Of a stretch of DNA of 32,402 nt, positions 24,443-28,812 are shown in pieces; position 1 is the stretch's first letter, and the number at the start of each line of letters is the position of its first letter. Source of the stretch: Haliea sp. (lineage in GTDB: Bacteria; Pseudomonadota; Gammaproteobacteria; Pseudomonadales; Halieaceae); NCBI GenBank assembly GCA_009937575.1, contig JAACFI010000009.1, forward strand, positions 1 to 32,402, read 5' to 3'. Below the pieces are notes generated by a model. That model made no database searches, was not told the DNA's origin, and saw nothing but the letters and a program-made list of their open reading frames with translations. A program made the position numbers and the translations under genes.

Positions 24443-25550
<1,108 letters not shown>

Positions 25551-25671: not shown

Positions 25672-25695
25672 AAAAAAGGGGGCCGAAAGGCCCCC
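25672..25695 (-). terminator. Intrinsic terminator of the porin-glnK-amtB operon
   Basis: Read on the minus strand, GGGGGCC-TTTC-GGCCCCC forms a perfect 7-base stem with a 4-base loop followed at once by six T (complement of 25672-25677). It starts about 38 bases after the amtB stop. A textbook Rho-independent terminator that isolates amtB from P-II copy 1. Confidence 0.9.
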
Positions 25696-25732: not shown

Positions 25733-27016
25733 TTACAGGCCGCTGCCGCTGGCACCGACGAACTCGGGGTAGGCTTCCATGCCGCACTCGGACTGGTCTA
25801 CACCCTCGTATTCCTCTTCCTCGCTGACGCGGATACCCATGATCGCCTTGAGGATACCCCAGACGATCAGGCTGGCGAAGAACACCCAGATGAAGATGAC
25901 CAGGGCGCCAACCAGCTGGCCCATGAAGGTCGCGTCGGGATCGGATAGCAGTACCGCGAAGATACCCCACAGTCCGACCACACCGTGTACCGAGATGGCA
26001 CCGACTGGATCGTCGATCTTCATCTTGTCCAGGCTGATGATGCTGAATACCACGATCACGCCGCCGATTGCACCGATGATGGTAGCCATCAGCGGTGACG
26101 GGTCAGCAGGCTCGGCAGTGATTGCCACCAAGCCGGCCAGGGCGCCGTTCAGGGCCATGGTGAGGTCAGCCTTGCCGAACAGGATGCGGGCCACGATCAG
26201 CGCACCGATCAGGCCGCCCGCGGCCGCCGCATTAGTGTTCAGGAAGACGTTGGCCACCTCGTTGGCGACTGCGATGCCGCCCAGCTTCAGGGTGGAACCC
26301 CCGTTGAAACCGAACCAGCCCATCCACAGGATGAAGGTACCGAGTGTCGCCAGGGGCAGATTGGCACCCGGGATAGCCCTGATCGAACCATCGGCACCGT
26401 ATTTGCCCTTACGAGCGCCCAGCAGCAGGACACCTGCCAGGGCAGCGGCCGCACCGGCCATGTGTACGATACCGGAACCGGCGTAGTCGCTATAGCTCAG
26501 TTCACCGATGAAGGGAACCGCCTTGCCACCCCAGGTCCAGCCACCCTCGATCGGGTAGATGAAGCCGGTCATGACCACGGCGAACGCCAGGAAGGCCCAC
26601 AGCTTCATCCGCTCCGCGACCGCGCCCGAGACGATGGACATGGCGGTTGCCACGAATACCACCTGGAAGAAAAAGTCGGAGGCGCCTGAATAGACCGAGT
26701 CGCCATCAAAGCCGGCCTCAGCGGAATCCGCGAGCACCTGGGCAACGGCCGCATCGTCCATACCCGCCACGGTGGTAACACCGGACAGGAAGATTCCACC
26801 GTCATACATCAGGTGGTAACCGACGATCAGGTACATAGTACAGGCCACCGCGAACAGGGCCACGTTCTTGAGCAGGATCTCAGTGGTGTTCTTGGCGCGG
26901 ACCAGGCCAGCCTCAAGCATGGCAAAGCCAGCCGCCATCCACATTACCAGTGCGCCACAGATCAGGAAGTAGAACGTGTCTAAGGCGTACTGTAGTTCGA
27001 AAATATTGTTTTCCAT
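25733..27016 (-). CDS. amtB: Ammonium transporter AmtB
   Basis: AmtB conducts ammonium across the inner membrane and is blocked by P-II binding. The 427 residues predict about eleven membrane segments. The pore twin histidines are His185 (GSGIVHMAG) and His344 (AISVHGVVGLWG), and DFFFQVVF carries the phenylalanine gate. There is no long cleavable signal; the protein begins MENNIFELQYALDTFYF. A 31-base gap follows glnK copy 2, the common glnK-amtB pairing that lets P-II be recruited to the membrane when nitrogen becomes plentiful. Confidence 0.97.
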   Translation of the reverse strand: MENNIFELQYALDTFYFLICGALVMWMAAGFAMLEAGLVRAKNTTEILLKNVALFAVACTMYLIVGYHLMYDGGIFLSGVTTVAGMDDAAVAQVLADSAEAGFDGDSVYSGASDFFFQVVFVATAMSIVSGAVAERMKLWAFLAFAVVMTGFIYPIEGGWTWGGKAVPFIGELSYSDYAGSGIVHMAGAAAALAGVLLLGARKGKYGADGSIRAIPGANLPLATLGTFILWMGWFGFNGGSTLKLGGIAVANEVANVFLNTNAAAAGGLIGALIVARILFGKADLTMALNGALAGLVAITAEPADPSPLMATIIGAIGGVIVVFSIISLDKMKIDDPVGAISVHGVVGLWGIFAVLLSDPDATFMGQLVGALVIFIWVFFASLIVWGILKAIMGIRVSEEEEYEGVDQSECGMEAYPEFVGASGSGL

Positions 27017-27047: not shown

Positions 27048-27458
<411 letters not shown>

Positions 27459-27461
27459 TTA

Positions 27462-28232
27462 TTAGAGGCTTTTTGCGATTGTGAATACTACTGTGTCGTC
27501 AGCCCAGTCGGTGTCGAACACATCTTCCTCGTCCAGGTCTGTACCAACGTAAGCCAGGGACCAATCGACGCTCGCCCAGTTGTAGGTCACAGCAACCGAA
27601 TAGTCGGTGTACTGGTCTTCGTCAGTCGCCAGGAAACCCCCGTCCTCTTCCAGGAAGTTCAAACCAACGTGAAGATCGACAGTCAGCCCGGTATCAAACA
27701 AGCCAAAACTGTAGTCGCCGGACACGTACCAGAACTCATCGGTTTCCGCGTAGTAGTCGTCCGAGTAGTTCACCTGCAGGGACAGATCCCTCCAGGAGCC
27801 GCCAATATAGAACTCCTGGTAGTCGCCTTCATCGCCGTTGTCACCGGGGTAGTCGTAATAGATATAACCCACGTCGATGCCGAAATCGGTATCGCCGATC
27901 GAGCTGGCCCAGCCACCGTAGTAGTCGAGTTCCAGGCTGCCATCGTAACCGTCACCATTGGTGTCGAAGTCGACGCTGGATCCCCACATTCCGAGGTAGA
28001 AACCGGGACCAAACTCGGCATCGAAGCCACCCTGTACGGCGAAGTCTTCATCAGACTGGGAAATACCGCGGAAGCGGTAATCGGTGGTCAGGGCCACATT
28101 GCCGCTGATCTCGAAGCCGCTGACCAGTTCGTCACCGGTCACGATGGCGGGTTCGTCCTGGGCCTGTGCCAGGGAAGTACCTGCCAGCAGGGCGGCAGTT
28201 ACAGCAGCGGGAAGTAATTTCTTGTTCAACAT
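27462..28232 (-). CDS. TorF family putative porin (TIGR02001)
   Basis: A 256-residue exported protein: signal peptide about 1-25 (cleavage near AQA-QDE), then an acidic, aromatic-rich sequence of alternating strands (GFEISGNVALTTDYRFRGISQS is the family's opening block) ending in TIAKSL. It is predicted to be an outer-membrane beta-barrel. Members of this family commonly precede glnK-amtB in proteobacteria, and the sigma-54 promoter upstream suggests it is induced with them under nitrogen limitation. A role in uptake of a nitrogen source is inference. Confidence 0.9.
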   Translation of the reverse strand: MLNKKLLPAAVTAALLAGTSLAQAQDEPAIVTGDELVSGFEISGNVALTTDYRFRGISQSDEDFAVQGGFDAEFGPGFYLGMWGSSVDFDTNGDGYDGSLELDYYGGWASSIGDTDFGIDVGYIYYDYPGDNGDEGDYQEFYIGGSWRDLSLQVNYSDDYYAETDEFWYVSGDYSFGLFDTGLTVDLHVGLNFLEEDGGFLATDEDQYTDYSVAVTYNWASVDWSLAYVGTDLDEEDVFDTDWADDTVVFTIAKSL

Positions 28233-28335
28233 GTTTCAATCTCTCCATAATTTTCCAGGTTTACAGAAAATGTATCGCGTCATAACCAGCTACGGGCGCG
28301 TTGTGCGCGCTCTACACGGTCTGTCACTCTCTGAC

Positions 28336-28351
28336 TGCACGGGATGTGCCA
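28336..28351 (-). promoter_or_regulatory. Sigma-54 (RpoN) promoter of the porin-glnK-amtB operon
   Basis: The minus strand reads TGGCACATCCCGTGCA, matching TGGCAC-N5-TTGC with one change and with exactly ten bases between the GG and GC dinucleotides. The predicted transcript starts about 12 bases further on (near 28326), giving a leader of about 94 bases before the porin ATG. Confidence 0.85.
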
Positions 28352-28423
28352 GCGGCATATAACACTACAAATTTCAAATAGTTAAGTGATTATTACCTTG
28401 ACAGCCCCATGTGTTCTCCCCAT

Positions 28424-28453
28424 TTGAGCTCACTTCAAACGCACCAATATAGT
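28424..28453 (+). promoter_or_regulatory. Candidate sigma-70 promoter for ubiK
   Basis: TTGAGC (28424-28429, 4 of 6) and TATAGT (28448-28453, 5 of 6) are 18 bases apart. The -10 falls inside NtrC-like site 1. The predicted leader to ubiK is about 92 bases. Confidence 0.4.
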
Positions 28454-28456
28454 GCA
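28440..28456. promoter_or_regulatory. NtrC-like binding site 1
   Basis: CGCACCAATATAGTGCA is a near-perfect dyad: one mismatch in each half of TGCACCA-N3-TGGTGCA. Its centre lies about 122 bases upstream of the predicted sigma-54 transcription start, typical of an enhancer for NtrC. Confidence 0.7.
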
Positions 28457-28457
28457 A

Positions 28458-28474
28458 TGCACCTTATTGGAGCG
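28458..28474. promoter_or_regulatory. NtrC-like binding site 2 (weaker)
   Basis: TGCACC-TTATT-GGAGCG keeps the left half of TGCACC-N5-GGTGCA in full and 4 of 6 bases on the right. Its centre is 18 bases from that of site 1, about -140 from the predicted start. Confidence 0.5.
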
Positions 28475-28551
28475 CAGCCCTGAGCTGTGCCTGTCCGCGG
28501 AATTCCTCTAGAATTCGAAACTTGGAAAATAACTCGAGGAATAAGGCGACC

Positions 28552-28812
28552 ATGGCACTGAAACCACCCCCTCCCCCCTGGGAAGTCCTGCAACAGGTCG
28601 GCGAACTGATCGGCGCCGGCAACTTCGGCAGCGGGGTGGACAAAAGTGCCCGCAACCTGGCCCAATCCGCCCTGGCTCGTTTGGATGTGGTCAGCCGGGA
28701 GGAATTCGATGCCCAGGCCGAAATTCTCGAGCGGACCCGCGCCCGGGTGGAGGAACTGGAAGCGGTTCTGGAATCCCTGACCCTGGAACTGGAGTCCCTC
28801 GAGGGGAACTGA
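28552..28812 (+). CDS. ubiK: UbiK (YqiC/BMFP) ubiquinone accessory factor
   Basis: An 86-residue helical protein. The second half carries the family core ALARLDVVSREEFDAQAEIL followed by a heptad-rich coiled coil ending LELESLEGN, which trimerises in relatives. In E. coli UbiK binds UbiJ and supports ubiquinone synthesis under aerobic growth. I chose the ATG at 28552 with AGGA and AAGG upstream; the frame opens further upstream only with a TTG. Followed by comM after 47 bases. E. coli UbiK is 96 residues; this one has a Pro-rich start (KPPPPPWEV). Confidence 0.9.
   Translation: MALKPPPPPWEVLQQVGELIGAGNFGSGVDKSARNLAQSALARLDVVSREEFDAQAEILERTRARVEELEAVLESLTLELESLEGN

Follow-up and report, generated by a model that had tools for sequence, protein, structure and literature searches.

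A predicted NtrC-activated sigma-54 promoter upstream of a porin-glnK-amt operon in Haliea sp.

Introduction

The control of glnK-amtB by NtrC and sigma-54 in enteric bacteria is textbook knowledge. In Escherichia coli K-12, a sigma-54 promoter and NtrC dyads are located upstream of glnK-amtB, and glnA (glnALG) carries two strong 17-bp NtrC dyads about 110–140 bp upstream. The genes amtB and glnB/glnK form the core of the NtrC regulon in Proteobacteria (PMC5343134), a study whose main text names no outer-membrane porin as a member of the regulog, and the same operon is reported to lack a porin in Paraburkholderia and Pseudomonas stutzeri (PMC5979394, PMC8443478). A 17-bp NtrC consensus, TGCACCAnnnTGGTGCA, is quoted in PMC8743547. 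Experiments on the Klebsiella nifLA promoter demonstrated a dependence on the face of the helix (Minchin et al. 1989, as cited in the review PMC7408454), and glnALG is called more tolerant in the same review. No nitrogen-regulated porin of the TorF type, and none within a glnK-amt operon, was found in the open-licence literature, a restriction that makes the absence of such reports weak evidence of novelty.

The locus described here lies in a 32,402-nucleotide stretch of Haliea sp. DNA, referred to as the window. It resembles the glnK-amtB locus of E. coli K-12 in its sigma-54 promoter and upstream NtrC-type dyads, but differs in having a porin as its first gene, in its abutting dyads (18 bp centre to centre) and in encoding a marine Amt (TIGR03644).

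Results

Organisation of the locus

Read along the minus strand, the locus comprises two dyads, a sigma-54 promoter, a TorF-family porin, a glnK-type PII gene, amt and an intrinsic terminator, with the following features:

28458..28474, minus strand, distal NtrC-type dyad (CGCTCCAATAAGGTGCA on the minus strand; centre about -141; 18/21)
28440..28456, minus strand, proximal NtrC-type dyad (TGCACTATATTGGTGCG on the minus strand; centre about -123; 20/21)
28336..28351, minus strand, predicted sigma-54 promoter, -24 GG / -12 GC (22.5/23.5; predicted start near 28325)
27462..28232, minus strand, TorF-family putative outer-membrane porin, first gene (TIGR02001/PF09694)
27395..27446 (approximate), minus strand, intercistronic RNA hairpin just upstream of the glnK ribosome-binding site
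27048..27386, minus strand, glnK-type PII signal protein (NF007946, 184.1 bits, cut-off 181; Tyr51)
25733..27016, minus strand, ammonium transporter of the marine Amt subtype (TIGR03644, 671.8 bits, cut-off 514)
25678..25695, minus strand, intrinsic terminator after amt (GGGGGCC TTTC GGCCCCC, then T6)

The gene names porin, glnK and amtB of the original prediction were borne out by profile scores above the cut-offs, with the Amt belonging to the marine subtype, and glnK directly precedes amt on one strand with a gap of 31 nt, as in glnK-amtB. On the plus strand, a ubiK-like gene diverges from the unit, and a YifB/ComM-type gene comes after it. Within the gap between porin and glnK, neither a sigma-54 site by the scoring described below nor a sigma-70-type match was found in the window. 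The same gap contains a 91-nt fold of -34.2 kcal/mol (z -3.1), with no T run behind the hairpin in the window; a gap hairpin at z <= -2 was observed in about 14 of 19 porin-first relatives, and several relatives (L056, L073, L088, L112) carry a T run behind the equivalent hairpin, which is thus terminator-like. The hairpin probably raises the abundance or stability of the porin message above that of the glnK-amt part, and might let the porin exceed GlnK and Amt through message protection or partial termination.

A second PII gene (25152-25490, minus strand) lies behind the amt terminator. It lacks a sigma-54 site and has a separate sigma-70-like promoter at 25550-25523 (TTGCCA-N16-CATAAT). The genome G159 (locus L129) has an equivalent terminator behind amt and contains the tandem order porin, glnK, amt, terminator, porin, glnK, with a good sigma-54/NtrC set before the first porin only; as a second porin and a second PII gene occur at the corresponding place there, a duplicated porin-glnK cassette is suggested, from which the porin was lost in the window. 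The Amt of the window is closer to proteins from other families (a Marinobacter and an Ectothiorhodospiraceae MAG, 85–88%) than to those of Microbulbifer (74–76%). Within a single genus (g4) of the same family, the Amt scores of L130 and L131 are clearly below that of L129 and also below that of L132, which belongs to genus g3. Judging from these sequence comparisons, an exchange of amt between lineages is possible.

The sigma-54 element and the dyads

Sigma-54 and NtrC motifs were scored by fixed consensus weights. The minus strand at 28336-28351 reads TGGCACATCCCGTGCA, with an exact GG-N10-GC core in a TGGCAC-N5-TTGCA-like context, and scores 22.5 of 23.5 on the weighted sigma-54 consensus with no equal on either strand of the 32 kb window. 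The exact spacing originally claimed for this strand was confirmed. With the -12 element at C28337, transcription is predicted to start near 28325. In an alignment of six family members, TGGCACA and TGC are invariant at this site.

Both dyads are 17-bp palindromes of the TGCACCAnnnTGGTGCA type and are predicted NtrC enhancers. The dyad at 28440-28456 (CGCACCAATATAGTGCA, 20/21) is the best of the window, and all 15 bp of its core, GCACTATATTGGTGC, are the same as in the -108 site of E. coli glnA; the dyad at 28458-28474 (TGCACCTTATTGGAGCG, 18/21) is the joint second-best of the window. Their centres, at about -123 and -141, fall inside the range of ~80–160 bp upstream that is expected of an NtrC enhancer, and agree within one base with the distances of about 122 and 140 bp first proposed from a start at 28326. 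The distal dyads of the window (-141) and of E. coli glnA (-140) are co-located, whereas the dyad spacing is 18 bp in the window and 32 bp in E. coli glnA. The centre-to-centre spacing of 18 bp given in the original prediction is exact, but it is not peculiar to this genome, as two further genera of the family have the -123/-141 pair as well; it occupies the same place in G181 and G078, with which the window dyads align without gaps between them, and the distances from dyad start to promoter start are 105 and 123 bases. Other close dyad spacings are common among relatives too; the commonest, observed in six cases (among L049-L128, upstream of glnK or porin), is 13 bp, with overlapping palindromes that share a half-site. 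A weak sigma-70-like match, TTGAGC-N18-TATAGT (28424-28453, plus strand), is directed toward the divergent ubiK-like gene and overlaps the proximal dyad, so NtrC bound there could affect that gene.

Calibration and chance expectation

The scoring was calibrated on the glnA and glnK promoters of E. coli K-12. With the same weights, the glnA sites were recovered with scores of 20 at both -140 and -108, and glnK gave a sigma-54 score of 23.5 with dyads at -87 (20) and -139 (16); the scale is meaningful because the well-known glnA sites and the glnK site at -87 are recovered by it. As a null, the intergenic region 28233-28552 was subjected to 2000 dinucleotide shuffles, in which a sigma-54 site of equal score arose 9 times, one dyad scoring at least 17 in 127 shuffles and two dyads in 7. 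An origin of the sites by chance within intergenic DNA is highly improbable: lone dyads of similar quality do arise by chance, and many occur among the matches listed in a whole-genome exact-pattern scan, but the sigma-54 site and two dyads together appeared in 0 of the 2000 shuffles, and conservation and phasing across genera, described below, contradict a chance origin.

The genome-wide uniqueness of the promoter set was judged from the exact-pattern search only, in which the matches listed are a lower bound. An AT-rich exact dyad on contig C384 was rejected as another promoter, being inside a coding frame. A repetition of the motif at glnA of this genome was not borne out: between glnA and a second, divergent amt (G000, contig C265, 8946-9283) the weights used above gave neither a sigma-54 nor an NtrC site, weaker sites and contig gaps being possible there, and by this scoring the region is unlike enteric glnA, which has NtrC/sigma-54 sites.

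Conservation among relatives

The porin was matched in 79 of 195 genomes of the order. Among the best 30 of these loci, a PII gene adjoins the porin in most, and most loci with such a PII gene have a sigma-54 site scoring 21.5–22.5 upstream of the porin and at least one dyad further upstream. A broader comparison was based on 80 loci found through the Amt protein in named genomes, 74 of which were usable. A TorF-family porin lies directly before glnK in 21 of these glnK-amt loci and not in the other 53. Of the 21 porin-first loci, 20 have a sigma-54 site ahead of the porin; of the 53 loci with no preceding porin, 52 have one ahead of glnK. Thus the sigma-54 site stands before whichever gene comes first, so the element heads the operon and the porin, where present, belongs inside the predicted nitrogen-controlled unit. 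A sigma-54 site within the porin-glnK gap was observed in 2 of the 21 loci, both with long gaps (L068, 535 nt; L117, 350 nt), in which the porin presumably forms a separate unit.

The original prediction depended on conservation of both elements in orthologous regions, and the scan supported it: besides the 20 of 21 sigma-54 sites, both elements were present at stricter cut-offs in 13/21 porin-first loci, and in 35/53 of the other loci. The background in random 500-mers from the same loci was 138/1955 for the sigma-54 site and 26/1955 for both elements. Among 26 phylum-wide family porins with no adjoining PII gene, a sigma-54 site was detected at 5 and both elements at 2 (Fisher test on this control, p 7e-7, with the unlinked porins conservatively entered as 6/26). 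This recurrence of the promoter set in many related bacteria argues that the site is real. On the other side, no more than the 13 of 21 porin-first loci reach the stricter dyad cut-off. The architecture is also not uniform, since in the closest porin-first relatives, in Microbulbifer (L088, L127), the sigma-54 site is 209–321 nt away from the assigned start and dyads scoring 18 are absent.

Helical phasing of the dyads

In the Amt-derived loci, the dyads tend to lie multiples of 10.5 bp away from the sigma-54 site (61 pairs, resultant 0.59), a phasing as large being found in 0 of 5000 jittered sets and unchanged after dereplication. It is present whether or not a porin comes first and for dyads with scores of 16–18, and is gone for dyads scoring 11–14; in the smaller order-level set alone it is not significant (p 0.09). 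The phase peaks correspond to dyad centres near -98, -109, -119, -130, -140 and -151, and the E. coli glnA sites coincide with these peaks. In the window, the distal dyad (-141) shares this phase (0.71 versus a population mean of 0.64–0.71). The proximal dyad (-123), which has the better sequence of the two, is displaced from the common phase by about a third of a turn, unlike the in-phase sites of E. coli glnA. This displacement counts against the promoter reading, and the close family has the same off-phase position. Oligomerisation may require two abutting NtrC dimers, of which one would set the geometry. As face-of-helix dependence was already known, the phasing supports working enhancers and is not a new principle.

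The porin

The porin (27462..28232) scores 173.7 bits against TIGR02001, for which the curated cut-off is 47.15, and its AlphaFold2 model is a 12-stranded barrel (pLDDT 82), so that it is like the TorF-family porins (TIGR02001/PF09694) in family score and predicted barrel. NanC and KdgM are 12-stranded small-solute porins. In the fold search these two gave the best full-length alignments (TM by target length 0.68 and 0.67), general porins, OmpF among them, received slightly lower E-values than they did, and sequence identity to the fold matches was 10–13%. Compared by sequence with solved structures, the porin gave weak Porin D matches at best (E 0.05 and worse). Unlike the porin of the window, most of the members found across the phylum are not beside glnK and lack the promoter set.

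Discussion

The region 28336-28474 very probably represents an NtrC-activated sigma-54 promoter that would transcribe porin, glnK and amt as one unit under nitrogen limitation, a reading drawn from sequence. The placement of the porin as first gene of an NtrC/sigma-54 operon, as originally proposed, is supported by the lack of a sigma-54 site in the porin-glnK gap and by the strong terminator behind amt; given that 20 of 21 porin-first loci have a sigma-54 site before the porin, compared with 5 of 26 unlinked porins, the porin is most likely the leading gene of an NtrC/sigma-54 operon with its end at the terminator after amt. A single RpoN (TIGR02395, 504 bits) is encoded in the genome, as is a full-length NtrC whose 751 bits exceed the curated cut-off. 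From these components we infer a course of events in which RpoN holoenzyme would rest in a closed complex at 28336-28351; when nitrogen is short, NtrB would phosphorylate NtrC, dimers of NtrC-P would bind the two abutting dyads and then oligomerise, and NtrC-P would loop back and open the promoter through ATP hydrolysis, giving a starvation-induced transcript that would begin near 28325, cover porin, glnK and amt and stop at the terminator (25695-25678).

The sigma-54 promoter might be real and yet respond to an enhancer-binding protein other than NtrC, for which the several further NtrC-like AAA+ regulators of the genome would be candidates; this is very unlikely, since the dyads fit the NtrC box, the best of them sharing 15 bases with E. 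coli glnA, they stand before glnK-amt, a core NtrC target (PMC5343134), and the genome has the full-length NtrC. The promoter might also drive the porin alone, with the hairpin terminating transcription and glnK-amt expressed mainly from a separate promoter. The stable fold in the gap and the T runs behind the equivalent hairpins of L056, L073, L088 and L112 would fit such an arrangement, but the gap has no sigma-54 site here or in 19 of 21 relatives and no sigma-70-type match in the window, where the hairpin is also not followed by a T run. Moreover, porin-less glnK-amt loci carry their own sigma-54 site (52/53), so that its loss would remove nitrogen control, and expression of the porin by itself from this promoter seems unlikely.

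Transcription of porin, glnK and amt together from an NtrC-activated sigma-54 promoter, the preferred reading, involves an ordinary mechanism; the porin as operon leader is its less familiar part and a modest novelty. The dozens of sigma-54/NtrC promoters that stand before one operon provide a natural data set for reading enhancer phasing. For the porin family, the Pfam entry of which (PF09694) is still labelled 'unknown function', the locus offers a testable function, namely outer-membrane uptake under nitrogen limitation, with the porin made together with the ammonium channel of the inner membrane and the regulator of that channel. Tentatively, and with somewhat less than even confidence, the porin may be a dedicated outer-membrane pore for nitrogen starvation that would deliver ammonium or small nitrogenous solutes to Amt and that many gammaproteobacterial families would have retained in the operon, where a conserved intercistronic hairpin or leaky terminator would set a high ratio of porin to GlnK and Amt.
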